Assembly: GCA_030272155.1 (NCBI GenBank)
Contig: CP126200.1
Coordinates: 2,790,001 to 2,854,000, forward strand
Source: Tetradesmus obliquus
Taxonomy: Eukaryota > Chlorophyta > Chlorophyceae > Sphaeropleales > Scenedesmaceae
Direction of reading: 5' to 3'
DNA: 64,000 bases
The notes beneath the pieces are model-generated. The model ran no database searches, was not told the origin of the DNA, and was given only the letters and a program-made list of their open reading frames with translations. The position numbers were made by a program, and so were the translations under genes. Below are positions 19,982-63,907 of the stretch, piece by piece; position 1 is the first letter of the stretch, and each line of letters starts with the position of its first letter.

Positions 19982-22900
19982 CCTGCTGCTCCTGCTGCTG
20001 CTGCTGCTGCCCCTGCTGCTCCTGCTGCTGCTGCTGTGTCAGGATCATGATGGCAGCCATCAGCAAGCTGGTGGCGGTCATCCCCGTCATTGCCAAGGCT
20101 GACACCTTCACTGCCCAGGAGATGGAGGACTTCAGGCAGGAGCTGCTGCAGGTGAGGTGTCACGACTGTTATGTAACACGTTAACACCATGGTTACATCA
20201 CATCAGACAAACTGCTGCAGCTACAGCAGCAGCAATGCAGTAAATGTACAAGGCAATAGGCGGCCGGAGCTGCTGCGCAGGGTGAGAGTGGTTTGCCTCT
20301 GTGCATTGGATTTTCACCACCCTTTTGCACAGCGCCAGCTTCCTCACCCGTTACTGCATTGTTTGTTAAGACAACCATACCCAACTTTTTCCACTTTCGC
20401 AGGTCATCCAGCACCAGCAGGCAGGCGTGGCATGCAGCAGCAACAGCAGCAGCCCAGCCACCTCTTCCCCACCCACCCCCAACGCCAACACCCCACCAGC
20501 GCCCGGCACAGCCGCAACATCCCCCGACGCCAGCGAGAGCAGCGCAGCCAGCAGCAGCAGCAGCAGCAGCACGCCAATCGGCTTGCCCCGCTCTGCTGCA
20601 GCAGCACTCTCAGGCTCCGCTGCGCGCCTCGCTGCAGTGACTGCTGCTGCGCCTGGTGCTGGTGGCGGCAAGGTGGTGTCACTGCCGCTTGGCAGCAAGC
20701 TACTTGGAGAGGGTGACATAAGGGACTACTGCGCAAGCATGATGGCAGAAGTGGTGCACAAAGTGAACAGCAGCAAGCCCGCCGCGCCAGACAGCTCAGC
20801 AGCAGCAGCAGCAGGGCCAGTGGCAGTGGTTGTGAGGGCGTCACAGAGCACCGAGCATGCAGGAGCAGCAGGGGCAAAGGCGGTTGAGGAGGATCCGGTG
20901 GGGCTGGCTTCTCAGCTGTGCCTGGAGACGTATCGGTTCAGGGAGAGCGACCTGGAGATGGTGGGCGCAAGCACGTCACAGCTGCCGCCTTTTGCCATTG
21001 TGGCGTCCAAGGTGAGCCTATGACCTGTTTATATTCATAGATGAGTGAATGTGTGCGACTCATCTGTTTCTTGAAGTGTGTTACATACTTCTTCTGATTG
21101 ATATAACAGTGACCTGGAAATGGTCGGGGCCAGCACCTCACAGCTGCCGCCCTTTGCAATTGTAACATCAAAGGTGAGACTGCGCCCCGGCTGTGATTGG
21201 ACTGTGTTGACGTATGTACTACATATCCAATAGTATTGGATAGCTATTTGAGCTGCAGGGAGGGTGACCTGGATATGGTGGGGCCAGCACCTTACAAGTG
21301 CCGTCCTTCACCAATGTGGCATCAAAAGTGATTGAGCAGGGCTTGTTGCCTGTCTGTCTGAAAGCGTTTGCAGGACTTGATGAGCTGAATGGACGTGACA
21401 GCAGCAGATGGCGGGCAGGTGGGGCAGCCCACATTTGTCAAACTTGTTACAAACATGTTACAAACGTGTCACTCCACATCTGAATTTTCACCCGCAGGAC
21501 CTGATGGGTCTGGAGGATGTGACAGCGGCAGATGGCGGCCAGGTGGGGCAGCCGTTCCGGCGCTACCGCTGGGGCAGCGCCTTCCCGCTCAACAGGGACC
21601 ACAGCGACCTCATCATCCTGAAGCAGCTGCTGTTCGGGCACAGGAACTTTGCGGTGCACGACTTGCTGCAGGTGAGATGCATCTCGGACACCTAAGTCTG
21701 TGGCAGGGGCATGCGCTGCTGCAGCTGGAGGGGGGTGAACGGGTAGGTGCAGAGCAGGCTGCGGCTATGCAGGTGGGGCAAGTTGGCTGGCAGCTGCAGG
21801 GGCACAGGAACTTTGCGGTGCACGACTTGCTGCAGGTGAAATGCATGTCAAACACATACGTGTGTGGGGGGGGGGGGCTGCTGCAGCTGTAGTGGGTTGC
21901 GGGGGCAGGGCCTTCTGCGGTGGGACAACCTGCTGCAGGTGAGGTGGTGACATGGGAGCAGCACTTTCAACATGGCGGCATAGCTCTCCCCTGCTGCCCT
22001 TCCCTGCACGATGCAGCGTTGAGAAAGGTCACCTGCCATCACTTTGTTCACCCGTCAACCACTCCACACTCTCAGGATCTTGTACAACAGCCAGGATTAT
22101 GTGCAACACTCAAAGCCAAACCCCGCACTGCTCTTGAATCCCACACTCTGCGCCCTGCAGGAATCCTGGCGCCGGGCCGTCACTTTTGCGCGCGAGTATG
22201 AGTTGCTGCTGCGCGTCAATGATCTGCAGTTTCAATCTTAAACCCTGACATTGAACCCCACACTCTGCAATTCCTGTGCCCTGCAGGACTCCTGGCGCAG
22301 CACCTTCACTTACGCGCGCAAATACGACACGCTGCTGCGATACAACATTCTGCAGTATTTGAATTGAATTTGAACCCTGACATTGAACCCCACACCTTGC
22401 GATCCTCGCGCCCTGCAGGACTCCTGGCGCCGCGCCTTCACCTTTGCGCGCGAGTACGAGACGCTGCTGCGTGACAACGGCCACGAGCTGGCCAGCGCGA
22501 CCACCGCGCTGCTGAGCGTGTCGCTGGCGCCCATGGTCGACGCGCTGTGCAGCTCGACCTGCGGCAGCACCGAGCTCGCCGACAAGCTGCGATCAGAGGA
22601 GGCAAAGGAGGTGCGGCGAGATGTGTTACTTTGTTATTGTTAGATGTCATGTTATCGTCAAAGCTTGCTTACTGCTGCTGTGCCTGCTGGTGTGCAACTG
22701 GACTGTTACACAGCCTGCTGATGACAGACTCATCCTGTCACGCTCATGCCACAACCAACCTTGCAAGCAAGCGTCATGCTGTTCATTGACATTCTGGCCG
22801 CTGCCTCTGCTGCTTTGCATACACACCAAGGTTCCACTCTGCTTTTCAAGTCAGTGAACTGTAATGTATGCATCAAACTGTGTGCAGGTGATCACCAACC

Positions 22901-29277: not shown

Positions 29278-38894
<9,617 letters not shown>

Positions 38895-40266: not shown

Positions 40267-42911
40267 GATGGCAGCAGCAGCAACAGCAGCGCCGCCGGCA
40301 GATGTCACAATAACCGCTGCAACACTGTGACAATCTCTGCCGCATCATGTGCCAGTGCTGCAAAAACACTACACTGCGCCCCACCTCGATCGTTGCCAGC
40401 TGGTAGCAGCTGCACTGGGCGGTACCACTGCTGCAAACACTGCTGCATTGTGCCAGTGCTGCGCTCCAGCGTATAACTGGTACAGACACTGCTGTTTTAT
40501 ATGCTGGTGCCGCACCTCCTTGTTTGCTGCCAGCTGGTAGGGGCTGCGCCCTTTGCTGTCACACGCAGTGGGGTCGTGCCCATTGGCCAGCAGCCGCGCC
40601 ACTCGCTCCGCATCACCCGCCTTGCTGGCCTTGACTAGCGCAGGTTCTTCCTGTGACAGGAGAAGCAGCAGCAGCACGGATGAAACGTGAGAGGCACCGG
40701 ACACAAGCGTGCACTACAAGTTTTGTCACAGGCGGCTACACGCTGCACATTCCCAACCCTAGCCACCCTCGCGTTGGCTCGTCCTTCAGCGCCTGTCAAA
40801 CGACAAGGACACCATAGCTAATGCTGCCTTACAGATGGTGCCGAGCCTGCATGTGACCTACACTTGCTGCTACTCTCACATCAGGGCGAACACATTGACA
40901 CATCAAAGCAGCCATCGCATGGTCATCCTTCACACCCGACATCCCCACCTCATCAGACAAACCGCCAAGATCCTGAATCCACTAAGTTCGCCATCACCCA
41001 CCTGCTTCTTGGTGACGCCAGCAGGGCTGATACTGCCCACTGGCACCGCTGCCACCTGCTGCTGCTGCTGCCGCTGCTGCTGCTTCTCCTTCTGGCCCTC
41101 TGCCGCCGCACCCTGCTGCTGCTGCTGCTGCTGCTGATCCTCAAGCAGCTGCACAGGCCGCAAGCTTCCCAGCACCAGCAGCACTCTTTTCAGCTCCGAA
41201 AACGTCGGCCGCTGCGTCACAAACGGCACGCGCCGCACCCGCAAATCCCCCGGATCCAAAACCCCAGCGTGCCTCGTCCCTCCTGCTGCTGCTGCACCTG
41301 CTGCTGCTGCACCCAGAGGCCCGACGTCTGCTGCTGCTGCAAACAGCTCGCGGCTGTTTGAGCCGGGAGCAGAGAGGAAGATCAGCTGCGCAGCAGACAG
41401 CCATGGGCTCCATTCTTTGAGAAGTGCTGTGATGTCGCGTTGCAGCGCTGCCTCGTTGTAGCGGCGCAGCCTGCTGCCGGCGGAGCGCGCAAACTTGCCG
41501 GAAGCGTCCTTGGTGGACTGCTTGCCTCCTGCCTTAGCCCTGCAGACGAGAGCGCAACAGTGCACCAGTGCAAAAGCACGTAATCATCAATAGCTTGTGT
41601 CTGTATACTTGCCGCTGGCGTCTTTGGTGGACTGCTTGCCGCCCGCCTTGGCCCTGCAAATAAGAGCAGGCAACGATGCACCAGTACACAAACACAAATA
41701 TGGTACAGGATTGCAGTTGCGCAAACTTTCCGCTAGCATCTTTGGTGGACTGCTTGCCGCCTGCCTTGGCCCTTTCAGGTGGCGAGCAGGCAGCAATGCA
41801 CCAGCGCACATACTTAGTGCAAGCACGTGTGTGTTGGTGGATCCCTTTAATCTGCCTGCTTTGGTCCTGAAAGAGCAGGCAGGCAGCAATGCACCTACAG
41901 ATGCCTGTTGAATATAGGTGTGCATTGAGTGGTGGTGGTGGTGGGGTGCCTGTATTGTTTCAACCGCTGCGTCCCCAGATCTGCAGGCTGGGGCAACCTC
42001 AACCATTAGCATCAAGCGCAGCGCTGTACCTGACTACATAGCGGTGGAAGGTCTTGTGCGCCAGCACAGTAAACGGCTCGATCGGCTGCTGCACCTTTGA
42101 GCGCTGCTGCTGCTGCTGCTGCTGCTGTTGACTGCTGCTGCTGCTGCCAGCAGCAGAGTCGCCTCCCGCTGCCTCTGCAGGAGGAGTGATAGGCCGAGGC
42201 CCTTTGCTGCTGCTGCTGCTGTTTATACGTACAACAGCAGCAGCAAAGTGGCCGCCGCGCAGCATCAGCAGCATCCAGATGCAGCCCCCTGCATCTTGCT
42301 GCTGCTGCTGCTGCTGCTGTGCGACAATCCTGGCCCCTGCTGCAGCAGCTGCTGCTGCTGCATTGGTGCTGTTGGGCTGCCGTCTCAGCTGCCGCAGCAG
42401 CTGCAGCAGCTGCTGCCCCGAAGGCTCCTCCTGCTTGTGCTGCTTGTCTGGCAACAGCAGGCACCGCCACACGGCAAAAGCTGCACCATCTGCGCCAAAT
42501 GCAAACAAGGTCACAGTTGGATACAAGGATATGATTGCAGGTTGCCGCCGCGATGGAATCCTCAGGGAATGTGCACTATAAACTTCCCAGCGCATGACGT
42601 GAGTCCTGCTGCTGTGCGTTTTTTGCACATTGCATGCGACGCAGACAGCTGCGCAACACTGTATTCTGTTGCAATGCACTGCGTGGACAGCAGCCATGCA
42701 GCCAGAAGCCACAAAATATGCTTCACTCATCGCCCCGCCCTTCACCTGCGCTCTTGAATACTGCCTGAGCTCCTTGTATAGCTGCAGGGCCGTCACGCCT
42801 GCGGCCGCGTCTGCTGCTGCTGCCGCCTGCTTCATCATCGCTGCTATCATCAGAGGAATCTGTGTCTGAGCCTGATATGCTGGACACCTGCAGCAGCAGC
42901 AGCAGCAAGGC

Positions 42912-59102: not shown

Positions 59103-62100
59103 CGCTGCTGTCGCTGCTGCTGCCGCTGCTGTCGCTGCTACTGCTGGTGATATGTGTTGACTGCTTGGTACTTCAAATAGCAGTTACAGGAGCTTGGGCA
59201 ATGCTGGTGGTGCAGCTGGCCATGCCAGCGCCCGTAACATTGTTCACAAACATGCTTGGCGTGGACAAGGCGTTTGATTGTCCAGCTGCAGCAGAGTCGA
59301 CCAACAACTGCTGCTGCTTCTGCTGCTGCAGTTCTTTGAGAAGGTCAAGTCTCGGCTGCGCAACCGGGAGCTGTACCAGGACTTCCTCAAGTGCCTCAAC
59401 CTGTACGCGCAGGAGATCATCAGCAGGCAGGAGCTGCTCAGCCTGGCACACGTGAGTGCCAGCAGGGACAGCAACAAAAGCTGGCAGCAAGGTTAAGCAT
59501 TAGCAGCAGTTGCACGGCAGCATATTGCAGGAGGTCCTCAGCAGGCAGGAGCACACGTGATCGGGCGGGACAGTGAGACGTAGGGCAGCAGCAGCAGCGA
59601 GGGCAGCAGATGCTGGGGTTGGGGAAATACTAGTTGCAGCCGCACTTGTGCGGCAGCATTTGCCACGAGGTGACTGGCACATGTGAGCAGGCGGGACTGC
59701 AGGCTGGGACAGTTGGCAGGCTGGGACAGCAGCAGCAGCTCGCAGCAAGAGGTGGCGGGAGCAGTGGATGCTTGGGGTGGGGGGAGTAGCTTGCAGCAGC
59801 AGTTGTGCAGCAGCAGCTTGCAGTAGATCATCAGTAGGCAGGAGCTGCTCAAACTGGCACACATGAGCAACAGGCTTGCTGCACAGTTTGCAGGTTGGGA
59901 CAGCTTGCAGGTTGGTACAGTGGGACAATGGAACGAGGGACAGCAGGCTGGGACAATGGGCCAGCGGGATGCGGGACAGCAGCAGGCTGGGACAGCCATC
60001 TGCAACAGCGGGCCGGGACAGCAACAAATTGAGGCAGCTGTAGTGTGCAGCAACAGCCAGCAGCAGCCGGCAGCAGCTGACAGCAGCAAGGGTTGGCAAC
60101 AGCAGCAGCAGCAGCCGCCCAAGACATGTCCTAAAATCAAGCTGTGTTTCTTGCTGCTGTTGCTGCTGCTACATAACATCATTGGGTGTTTTGGGGAGTT
60201 GCGGCAAGCTGATCTTGATTTTGAATATGCTGCTGCTGCTGCCGCTGCTGCTGCTGCTGCTGTTCCTGTCACAGGACATCATCGGGCGCTTCCCTGACCT
60301 GCTTGATGGCTTCAGCCGCTTCCTGCAGCGCTGCGAGACCATGGACGCCGTGGACAGCGAGATGCGCAGCCAGTTTGGCGCGGGCAAAATCAGCGCCAAG
60401 GACATGGCGCGCCTCAAGGGCCAGACTGTGCGGTGAGCAGCAGCAACCTCTGTTCTTGTACTGTCTTCATGCATGTCTAGTTTGTAGCAAAGCAAGTTTT
60501 CTTCAGTGACACTGTTGCGTCAGACTATGACGCAATGCATGGACAAGATGCTGAGCAAGCCCATCAGCGCAGAAGCTGTATGAATGACTGCTTCCATTGT
60601 ATTGCATCGGTCTTGTGTCTCAACGTGCCTTTGTTCACCAATGCAGGGACAAGATGCTCAGCAAGCCTATTAGCGAGGTTGCTGCCGAGTACAACCTGGA
60701 CGACCGCTGCACGCCCAGCATTGTTCAACTGACATGTTACGCATGGTTGCATAACATTGCAGGGACAAGATGCTCAGCAAGCCCATTAGTGAGGTTGCTG
60801 CGGAGTACAACCCTGATGACCGCTGCACGCCCAGCATCGTTCAACCGACATGTTCAAATGTTTGCATAACATTGCAGGGACAAGATGCTCAGCAAGCCCA
60901 TTAGTGAGGTGGCCGCAGAGTACAACCCTGACGACCGCTGCACGCCCAGCTAGACTGCCAACTCACTTGTATCTGTGCAAACTTTGTGCATGACACTGCA
61001 GGGACAAGATGCTGAGCAGCCCATCAGCGCGGTGGCCGCAGCGTACCGCTTCCAACATGTATTGCATCGTGCTTTTCCTTGAATCAATGCAGGGACAAGA
61101 TGCTCAGCAAGCCGATCAGTGAGGTTGCTGCTGAGTACAATCCTGATGATCGCTGCACCCCGAGCTACGTGCGCGTGCCTGCCAGCTACCCCAAGGTCAA
61201 GAGCAGCGGCAAGACGGCGATTGGTGAAGAAGTACTTAACGACGCCTGGGTGTCCATCATCAGCGGCAGCGAGGACTACAGCTTCAAGGTGAGGGTTTTG
61301 GGGGTATTTATCCAGGGTTTGGGGGCTGAGGGTTCAGGGGTGCTGTGACACAGGGTTGTGAGGTGCTTCCACAAGGTAGGGACGAGGTTGGGGTGTGCCA
61401 GCGTGATCATGGGCCCGGCATTGCTGCCGTGCGTGCCAGTGCTGCTAGGCCTGCTCGCGACAGCTCATGCGCAAGAACCAGTATGAGGAGGCGCTTTTGT
61501 GGTGCTGTGCTCTCATCCCATGTGCTGCTGCTGCTACTCCCAACGCACTGCTCCGCTGCAACAGCTCATGCCCAAGAACCAGTACGAGGAGGCGCTCTTC
61601 CACTGATCTGATCTAATCCTATCAACATCATCCGCTGCTCTGCTCTGCTTGGCTGCCCTCCTTTCTTTTAATTTCAACAACAGCTCATGCGCAAGAACCA
61701 GTATGAGGAGGCGCTCTTCCGCTGCGAGGACGACCGCTTCGAGCTGGACATGTGCATCGAGACCACCAGCAGCACGCTGCGCAAGCTGCGCCCGCTGCGC
61801 GACGCGTTTGCAGCCATGAGCCCTGAGGAGCGCGGGCTGTGGCGGCTGCCTGAGGGCGAGCTGGGCGCGATCCACTTCAGGGCGGTGGAGCGCATTTACG
61901 GCGACCAGGTGGGCAGCACTGTAGACCAAACGATCTCATGATTCCACATCACCTTGTATTGTCGTTTCGTAGCATTGTTTGCGGCCATGAGCCCTGAGGA
62001 GCACGGCCATGTAGATCGATCTGGTTGTATGTGTAGATTCCGACAACGGCTTTGTAGATAGCGTGCGGCCGTGAGTCCTGAGGAGCTGGGGCTGTGGCGG

Positions 62101-63907
62101 CTGCCTGAGGGCGAGCTGGGCGCGATCCACTTCAGGGCGGTGGAGCGCATCTACGGCGACCAGGTGGGCAGCAATGTAGACCAAATAATCTCATTATGCT
62201 AGAATACCTTGTATTGTCTTCTGGCATTGTTTGCGGCCATGAGCCCTGAGGAGCACGGCCATGTAGATCGAACATAATATATGTGTAGATTCCGCAACAA
62301 TGGCTTTGAAAATAGCGTGCTGCCATGAGCCCTGAGGAGCGCGGGCTGTGGCGGCTGCCTGAGGGCGAGCTGGGCGCAATCCACTTCAGGGCGGTGGAGC
62401 GCATCTACGGCGACCAGGTGGGCAGCAATATAGGCTAATGCAAGGCCACTAGATTGTGGAGCTGCTGAAGCACAACCTCAACCTGCTGCTGACCGCTTTT
62501 GCTGCTGCTGCTGGCCGCTTTTGCTGCTGCTGCTGGCCGCTTTTGCTGCTGCTGCCCACTTCTGCTGTGCTGCTCTGCTTGCAGCAGGGCCCCCAGATTG
62601 TGGAGCTGCTGAAGAACAATCCCACTGTGGCCATCCCAGTGCTGACCGCTACTGCTGCTGCTGCTGCCGGTTCTGTCTGCCTGCCACTCCATTGCACTCG
62701 CAGCAGGGCCCCCAGATCGTGGAGCTGCTGAAGAAGAATCCTACTGTGGCTATTCCAGTGCTGACCGCTACTGCTGCTGCTGCTGCCGATTCTGTCTGCC
62801 TGCCACTCCATTGCACTCGCAGCAGGGCCCCCAGATCGTGGAGCTGCTGAAGAAGAACCCCACTGTGGCCATCCCAGTGGTCATGGTGCGCCTGGAGCAG
62901 AAGGAGACGGAGTGGCTGCGGGTGAGTTTCTGTGCAGCATGCTATGCTATGAGTAAGTCCACTCACGGGTGGTGTACCGGGTGCATAGGAGGCTTTGGTG
63001 GGATAGGTGGTCCCTATGTCCCCAGAGCAGGAGGAGACCGAATGGCTGCGGGTGAGGCATGGTGCAGAATGCTTTGTTATGATTATGTGGCTAAAGGGTT
63101 GTGCCACATTTTATTGGAGGTGTGAGTGATATGGGTGATCATGGTGCCCCCCCAGCAGAGGCAGGCGGAGTGGCTGCGGGCGAGGCGGGTGAGGCTCACA
63201 TGCAAACTGCAATCTCTCTGTCAACAGAAGTCGCCGTGCATGCACACTTATCGCAAGTGCTGTTGCTTGCGAGGAGATGAACGAGCTGTGGTCCGCACAA
63301 TGCATGCATTCGCTCCGTGCTGAGCATTCTGCATGTCGCGCTGAGTGTGTTGCATGTAGGTGTAAGTGTGTCGCGTGTTGCTTGCGTGCAGGTGCGTGAG
63401 GAGATGAACGAGCTGTGGCGCAAGGTGTTCCAGCAGAACTACCACAAGAGCCTGGACCACCGCTCCTTCTACTTCAAGCAGAGCGACAAGAAGAGCCTCA
63501 TGCCCAAGGCCATGCTGCAGGAGGTGGGGCGAGAGGCCAGGGTGCATCCAGGGTTTGACTGCTGGGTTTAGGGTTTTGACCGAGCGCTGACCATATTGAT
63601 TAAAGTTTGTGCTTGCCAGGCTGAACAATCGATCATTGGTTTGTTTGCTAGCTCTGCAGCCTGCTGTTTACTGCACCAGCTAGCTGCCTGCCAGCACAAG
63701 CTCAAGATCTGGCCCCGCGTGCGCAGCTGCTGCGTGTTGCCGAGTGCTGAGTTTTTGTAAAGCCATTGAGCTGCTGCTGCTGCTGCAGGTGCGCGACGCG
63801 GCTGAGAAGCGGCGCCTGGATGAGCGTCAGCTGCAGGCCCTGGCTGCTGGTGGCAGCCCCAGCGCCATCCTGCTGCAGCCAGACCTGTCCTTTGACTACA
63901 ACTCAGA
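55981..63907 (+). CDS. SIN3: SIN3 paired amphipathic helix corepressor (3' end beyond window)
   Basis: Scaffold of the SIN3-HDAC corepressor. Exons 55981-56039, 56162-56317, 56487-56577, 56704-56745, 56950-57027, 57486-57584, 57977-58054, 58499-58592, 58868-59043, 59332-59451, 60275-60432, 61093-61288, 61684-61908, 62826-62921, 63392-63523 and 63789-63907 join in phase; a donor at 63908 shows the gene continues. PAH1 (about 35-108) has [17 protein letters not shown] and FNTFLPKGYEIQL; PAH2 (128-195) has [18 protein letters not shown] and FTYFLPD; a Gly/Met/Arg-rich linker follows; PAH3 (292-353) has [18 protein letters not shown] and [12 protein letters not shown]. The HDAC-interaction region shows [40 protein letters not shown] and [12 protein letters not shown], then [12 protein letters not shown]. 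The start ([11 protein letters not shown]) resembles plant SNL proteins. Introns 10-14 are full of partial exon copies. Confidence 0.93.
59525..59870 (+). repeat. Copies of the SIN3 exon 10 end in intron 10
   Basis: The segment reading [14 protein letters not shown] recurs at about 59826-59866 (AGATCATCAGTAGGCAGGAG, one silent AGC/AGT, GAG to TAG, Ser to Lys) and, more decayed, near 59526-59560. Between and after them lies a run of CAGGCTGGGACAG-type repeats to about 60000. Confidence 0.75.
60530..61045 (+). repeat. Five tandem partial copies of the SIN3 exon 12 start
   Basis: Copies of the [20 protein letters not shown] region occur at about 60541-60570, 60646-60720, 60762-60836, 60876-60951 and 61001-61048, before the real exon at 61093. 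Most have the CATTGCAG-type acceptor and a shared intron tail, giving a period of about 115 bases. Among the three full-length copies and the real exon about a dozen codons vary; all are third-base silent changes except one CTG/CCT (Leu/Pro). The last copy has lost a base and decayed. None has a clear donor. Confidence 0.92.
61447..61600 (+). repeat. Two copies of the SIN3 exon 13 start
   Basis: GCTCATGCGCAAGAACCAGT ATGAGGAGGCGCT appears at about 61464-61500 and, with CGC/CCC and TAT/TAC changes, at 61563-61604, before the real exon at 61684. The second ends CACTGA where the exon has CGCTGC. Confidence 0.88.
61975..62420 (+). repeat. Two copies of the SIN3 exon 13 end in intron 13
   Basis: The second half of exon 13 ([31 protein letters not shown]) and its GTGGGCAGC donor recur at about 62068-62170 and 62320-62430, each preceded by a scrap reading GCGGCCATGAGCCCTGAGGA. 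The codons differ only by ATT/ATC and GCG/GCA. The following intron (TGTAGACCAAA) is copied as well. Confidence 0.9.
62446..62822 (+). repeat. Three copies of the SIN3 exon 14 start
   Basis: Copies at 62586-62643 and 62706-62763 read GPQIVELLK(N/K)NPTVAIPV, each with a GCAGCAG acceptor and each running into a CTG tract and the same TCTGTCTGCCTGCCACTCCA segment, with a period of about 120 bases. The second differs from the real exon by four silent changes in 18 codons. An older, degenerate copy is at about 62450-62495. Confidence 0.92.
63025..63300 (+). repeat. Copies of the SIN3 exon 14 end and exon 15 start in intron 14
   Basis: GAGCAGGAGGAGACCGAATG GCTGCGGGTGAGG at 63026-63058 and GGCGGAGTGGCTGCGGGCG at about 63165-63185 echo the end of exon 14. 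GCGAGGAGATGAACGAGCTG TGG at about 63268-63291 echoes the start of exon 15. Confidence 0.82.

Follow-up and report, generated by a model that had tools for sequence, protein, structure and literature searches.

Partial copies of exons sit in the neighbouring introns of the green alga Tetradesmus obliquus, in arrays of up to five copies plus the exon. A minority of these arrays, above all the one at exon 12 of a SIN3 gene, appears to depart from neutrality. The explanation that we prefer, tentatively and at somewhat less than even confidence, is that the copies are dead tandem duplications over intron-exon boundaries, and that a few arrays combine silently diverged versions of an exon. An initial annotation had drawn attention to four sets of copies that differ from their exons almost only at silent sites; our verdict is that its observation was sound and its baseline wrong, that the copies outside the window are mostly ordinary, and that a small unexplained residue remains, centred on SIN3 exon 12.

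Local exon copies in introns

The window is the 64,000-nucleotide stretch C10:2790001-2854000 of a 104.66 Mb assembly of 17 contigs. Our sample comprised 299,059 unmasked bases in 32 sequences, the window together with L001-L013, L015-L028 and L033-L036; L014, which is all N, and L029-L032, which are SIN3 itself, were left out. A local exon copy was found beside 66 of the 294 exons predicted in these sequences by a home-made predictor, which counts some copies as exons. The copies are those of tandem duplication across an intron-exon boundary: they are direct, adjacent and regularly spaced, and the unit spans the junction of AG with the exon or of the exon with GT. A literature search returned nothing that we recognised as describing intronic exon copies of this pattern.

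Mismatches between copies are phased. In a frame-free test of 264 local repeat pairs the summed chi-square was 686, against a permutation mean of 379 and maximum of 465 (n=300), with part of this sum contributed by a true protein repeat at L019 7844-8399. A cruder first count, of 26 clusters, put mismatches at 0.070 for the first, 0.061 for the second and 0.185 for the third codon position, and at 0.191 for the intron parts. The L019 repeat, a 38-residue tandem repeat in a predicted coding stretch, served as a positive control; its differences are almost purely silent (12:0), and the silence test therefore has power.

Other repeats were seen in the same sequences. In the window a (CA)n array runs without interruption for 8,460 bases (30432-38891); L013 1-10000 has 71 local repeat pairs across 10 kb, with a GC content of 0.493 and almost no predicted coding sequence, and resembles a satellite or another kind of repeat block; and in L026 1-2832 a unit of about 1.2 kb is repeated directly (1-1209 and 1457-2656).

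The SIN3 exon 12 array

The 3' half of SIN3 occupies the final 4 kb of the window (Pfam Sin3_corepress, E 3.2e-34). Exons 11-16 were placed by hand from splice sites and frame, and the exon 12 copies fall within one predicted intron:

60275..60432, forward strand, SIN3 exon 11, donor GTGAGC
60541..60577, forward strand, copy c0 of the exon 12 start; junction CAT with the AG lost, 12 comparable codons, about 2.5 replacements of its own, stop after 13 codons
60647..60719, forward strand, copy c1 of the exon 12 start; CAG acceptor, 24 codons, 10 silent and 1 replacing difference from exon 12
60763..60835, forward strand, copy c2 of the exon 12 start; 24 codons, 7 silent and 0 replacing differences
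60878..60952, forward strand, copy c3 of the exon 12 start; 10 silent and 0 replacing differences, TAG immediately past the 24 codons
61002..61046, forward strand, copy c4 of the exon 12 start; 1-base deletion, two replacements of its own, Glu-to-Ala
61093..61288, forward strand, SIN3 exon 12, source of the copies, in the Sin3_corepress region

The claim that these copies diverge nearly only at silent sites holds for c1, c2 and c3 (10/1, 7/0 and 10/0 in 24 codons), which together with exon 12 vary at 12 codons. The junction reads CAG in five of the six sequences and CAT in c0. Copies c0 and c4 are shorter than c1-c3 and decayed; both carry the same GAG-to-GC. change along with silent CTG, CCC, ATC and AGC, and the stretch c0-c1 aligns with the stretch from c4 to exon 12. 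Since c1 and c2 have the same non-exon junction, ATYGTTCAACYGACATGTT, they parted after leaving the exon, one copied from the other. Among 72 sites, exon 12 has five silent changes of its own, c2 has one and c3 none, so this array breaks a clock.

Further arrays in the window

The other sets lie at SIN3 exons 13 and 14, a septin-like exon and a VMS1-like exon:

61684..61908, forward strand, SIN3 exon 13, with start copies at 61464 and 61565 and end copies at 62065 and 62319
62826..62921, forward strand, SIN3 exon 14, with copies at 62444, 62588 and 62707
20872..21011, forward strand, septin-like exon (exon 7 of the initial annotation), Pfam Septin E 6e-4, which falls short of the curated cut-off
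21108..21177, forward strand, first septin copy, donor GTGAG, 10-11 silent and 1 replacing difference
21264..21331, forward strand, second septin copy (21266), decayed, with 4 silent and 7 replacing changes of its own and one gap
41493..41572, reverse strand, VMS1-like exon edge, Pfam bVLRF1 E 1.5e-11 over a joined 40 aa
41607..41693, reverse strand, VMS1 copy (41652)
41719..41808, reverse strand, VMS1 copy (41770)

The counts reported for these sets were likewise reproduced. The septin exon end at 20946 differs from the copy at 21108 by 11 silent and 1 replacing change in 22 codons (10/1 in 20 with the alignment ends trimmed), both VMS1 copies differ from their exon by six silent codons and no amino acid, in 15 and 17 codons compared respectively, and the SIN3 exon 14 copy at 62707 has 4 silent and 0 replacing differences in 18 codons. 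One of the six VMS1 codon differences is Ser TCC against AGC. All four sets are thus real and correctly counted, but they had been selected, with decayed copies of the same exons omitted (60542 and 61003 at SIN3 exon 12, 62444 and 62588 at exon 14, and 21266 at the septin exon). The copy at 62588 has two silent codons and one replacing, and that at 62444 is decayed with an in-frame TAG.

The neutral expectation for a copy beside a living exon

The initial annotation had reasoned that neutral decay should give mainly replacements. This premise is wrong when a dead copy is compared with a living exon: the copy changes everywhere and the exon only silently, which raises the silent share. Under the null of a neutral copy and a constrained exon, the expected silent share is 2A/(2A+B), where A stands for silent and B for replacing opportunities, both taken under the mutation spectrum that the intron parts show. 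Per pair it amounts to 0.33-0.50 rather than about 25%, and to 0.21-0.34 with both sequences free. Departures from this null are given as f, which measures how fast a copy takes up replacements in relation to neutral change; a dead copy has f 1.

Two filters were applied. The first, requiring that the copy not look coding, left 43 clusters (S 125.7 silent, N 126.3 replacing, expected S 104.0), included the L019 protein repeat and wrongly removed the best SIN3 copies. The second dropped only pairs inside one predicted exon (8 pairs, with VMS1 also lost) and left 122 pairs in 56 clusters; without protein repeats, the remaining 54 clusters gave S 143.5, N 190.5, expected S 136.9 and f 0.92 (0.69-1.22). 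Curation, done after the counts had been seen, reduced the set to 52 exons with 97 pairs (S 149, N 131, expected S 116.2) and lowered f from 0.92 to 0.62 (0.44-0.87), or 0.68 (0.49-0.94) with a GC-to-AT bias of 1.5. Dropped as doubtful were L009, L011, L019, L026, L033, L028 above 7000, L035 7857/7992/8180 and L021 above 8700; the arrays at L024 7628-8248, L020 8211 and VMS1 were delimited manually, in the case of L024 and VMS1 once their pattern had been noticed. Judged by eye, the curated exons from outside the window resemble ordinary conserved proteins, which they presumably encode.

Copies outside the window are compatible with death (f 1.17, 95% interval 0.81-1.64, in 38 uncurated clusters; 0.84, 0.55-1.24, in 33 curated exons), whereas those in the window are not: f is 0.55 (0.36-0.78) in 16 uncurated clusters, 0.42 (0.25-0.67) in 19 curated exons and 0.56 (0.34-0.79) in the 16 that remain without SIN3 exon 12 and septin. 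For the whole set the truth lies between the uncurated and the curated values. The initial annotation had named a genome-wide dN/dS near 1 as the result that would speak against it; in our sample the values outside the window (0.84 and 1.17) come close to this, and the window's 0.42 does not.

Substitutions in coding relative to intron parts stand at 0.53 (0.44-0.65), against about 0.62 worked out for a dead copy and a constrained exon. Gaps are rarer in coding than in intron parts even after halving, (coding/intron)/0.5 being 0.32 (0.14-0.61), and low-complexity intron sequence may explain part of this deficit. Mutation bias was considered as a cause and rejected: the GC-to-AT bias is 1.21, and at a bias of 3 the best SIN3 pair still has P 1.2e-4.

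Which lineage changed

In 14 multi-copy clusters, changes confined to the exon numbered 25.5 silent and 5.5 replacing, and changes confined to a copy 63.2 silent and 86.8 replacing, an f-like ratio of 0.46 (0.33-0.66). A generally faster rate at exon silent sites was rejected, with 0.124 exon-only against 0.110 copy-only changes per site (ratio 1.12, 0.67-1.81). At L020 7633-8256 there are four copies of an exon start, of which three have Tyr, and the exon and one copy have His; from these residues we read the L020 copies as probable fossils of older exon states.

Outlier arrays against chance

The best pair, SIN3 c3 compared with exon 12 (10 silent and no replacing differences), reaches P 5.4e-5 under the constrained-exon null; when the 97 curated pairs were simulated as neutral 4000 times, a value this low came up once. 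Five pairs have P below 0.005, where the simulations average 0.06 such pairs; the SIN3 array supplies four of the five. For the four sets the values are 5.4e-5 (best SIN3 pair), 0.0018, 0.0055 (VMS1, counting Ser as silent and assuming a silent share of 0.42) and 0.038. Clusters also vary more among themselves than the null allows (dispersion test, P 0.004).

Comparing copies with each other takes the exon out of the sum. In 14 clusters, partly picked by eye for their pattern, copy-copy pairs gave S 46.6, N 52.9, expected S 27.8 and f 0.44 (0.28-0.65), or 0.48 (0.33-0.67) without SIN3 exon 12. Copies of different birth times let a clock reach f 0.5, and the pooled value is borderline. The SIN3 pairs (6:1, 5:1 and 4:0) and the pair L024 8098/7794 (10:2, P 6.5e-5) are well below that limit; at L024, three copies read CAA GCC GCC/GCT CTG where the exon has CAG GCA GCA TTG. 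Simple neutral decay fits poorly at SIN3 exon 12 and, on weaker grounds, at septin, VMS1 and two arrays outside the window, L024 and L028; taken together, the copies outside the window are compatible with no constraint.

Splicing and translation of the copies

The initial annotation had offered translation in some transcripts as one reading, and a version in which copies act as alternative 3' splice sites, yielding truncated proteins that need the copied residues, is one to which we give little credence. It would draw on the CAG and 24 in-frame codons intact in c1, c2 and c3, on an acceptor AG present in 45 of 50 copies, on the scarcity of gaps in coding parts, and on c3, which would end the protein cleanly after TPS. 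Reading on from the acceptors of c0-c4, however, stops are met after 13, 73, 46, 24 and 39 codons, with intron-coded tails; silent-rich copies elsewhere are already broken, by a frame gap in L024 7628 and L028 2841 and by a TAA in L024 7794; and splice dinucleotides are not kept in excess, since donors are kept in only 23 of 34 cases and all sites together in 68 of 84, against 0.83 expected. Because of these stops, frameshifts and chance-level splice sites, translation of the copies is unlikely. The single related protein that is close to full length, P0001, which seems to derive from a transcript, also lacks any repeat of the segment.

Tandemly duplicated, mutually exclusive exons are likewise local direct copies of exon sequence, but every copy in a mutually exclusive or cassette set should be a complete exon that has both splice sites, acceptor and donor, and fits the reading frame. 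The SIN3 copies c0-c4 are partial: they hold at most 24 of the 65 codons of exon 12, lack a donor to match, and meet stop codons.

Source of the copies

Diverged paralogues had been suggested as another source. Among the best candidates scored, a DNA search of the assembly for a second SIN3 locus gave four matches, each local, and a protein search gave 12 matches, all within C10:2850275-2853908; viral contigs searched for relatives gave 0. Copying from a paralogue or another species' gene, by conversion or introgression, would account for high silent divergence with conserved residues, but we consider it improbable: no second SIN3 locus was found in the assembly among the best candidates that either search scored, and the intron flanks of the copies still align with one another, with spacers 12% and 23% mismatched.

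A JGI metagenome protein of 297 aa (P0012) is 97% identical, and the same exon there has one start copy and four end copies whose boundaries differ from those in the window, indicating that copies recur and turn over between close relatives. At the protein level, all 28 residues of its start copy agree with its exon; of the end copies, one appears to be frame-shifted and the other three show 2, 1 and 1 residue differences. The P0012 prediction runs through an exon copy, an intron, SIN3 exon 12 and the four copies of the exon end, an example of how gene predictors can be misled by these copies.

Origin of the silent surplus

In the explanation that we prefer, the copies are tandem duplications of 90-250 bases that span an intron-exon boundary; the copy inside the intron lies outside the mRNA and decays, as the sample taken together bears out within error. 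The exon's own silent drift, along with copies of different ages, would account for most of the silent surplus, and outside the window this null suffices. A minority of arrays (SIN3 exon 12, and probably L024 7628-8248, septin, VMS1 and L028 2635) would have gathered silent differences while the sequence was coding, the frame being lost later. Broken copies (L024 7628, L028 2841, L024 7794 and c3) are still silent-rich, so the silent differences appear to predate decay, and because such copies keep codon-patterned differences we infer that these arrays hold different old exon versions, perhaps joined by unequal exchange between homologous chromosomes. Of the alternatives in the initial annotation, diverged alleles seem the most workable for the outlier arrays. 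The weak point of a haplotype origin is that silent divergence in the outliers, 0.3-0.7 per silent site, is uncomfortably high for alleles and far above the within-species diversity known to us; the assembly contains no second SIN3 haplotype. Also against our explanation are the f of the 52 curated exons, which is below 1, the copy-copy f of 0.44, below 0.5, and the gap deficit in coding parts.

Plain neutral decay combined with the annotator's selection, under which all arrays are dead and the four sets are the tail of some 100 comparisons, is doubtful but deserves real weight. The estimates outside the window take in f=1, the 54 uncurated clusters have barely more silent differences than expected (143.5 against 136.9, with 190.5 replacing), and decayed copies of the same exons had been passed over. 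Against it stand the simulations, which matched the best observed P once in 4000 and yielded far fewer than five pairs below 0.005 (though four of those five are from one array), together with the dispersion among clusters and the low f of the window.

A further proposal, which we regard as very improbable, is that untranslated copies swap sequence with the exon often enough for replacements arising in a copy to carry a cost, so that copies are kept clean. Pairs diverged by 5-10% have f 0.38 (all curated) or 0.47 without SIN3 exon 12 and septin, and the copy-copy f, the gap deficit and the mutually incompatible silent patterns among SIN3 copies would fit. The youngest copies (<5%), however, have f 0.91, and by our estimate an exchange rate high enough to be selectable would erase the silent differences as well, except where the product of population size and mutation rate approaches 1, which would need an enormous population. 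The broader idea, that recombination with the exon keeps untranslated copies nearly free of replacements through second-order purifying selection on a dead copy, has only a slim chance of being right; if true, codon-like constraint would be possible in DNA that is never translated.

Relation to known systems and meaning

Introners also place repeated sequence within introns, but the SIN3 exon 12 copies match only locally in the genome search (four DNA matches among the best candidates scored). In the tandem duplication across an intron-exon boundary treated in PMC4974935, one event reportedly made a new intron, whereas here the copies lie inside existing introns. Pseudogenes that exchange sequence with functional donors, as treated in PMC3924837, resemble these arrays in that dead copies stand beside a selected donor and gene conversion is possible; the arrays differ in consisting of 50-100-base fragments within one gene, where exchange is a possibility only.

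With the appropriate null, replacements are expected to make up half as large a share. Codon-patterned conservation is routinely read as proof of translation. Broken copies in this genome still show such conservation, and comparison with a living exon yields much of it trivially. The arrays that beat the null, together with population data, would tell whether introns here store old or foreign silent states of their exons or hold copies cleaned by recombination.
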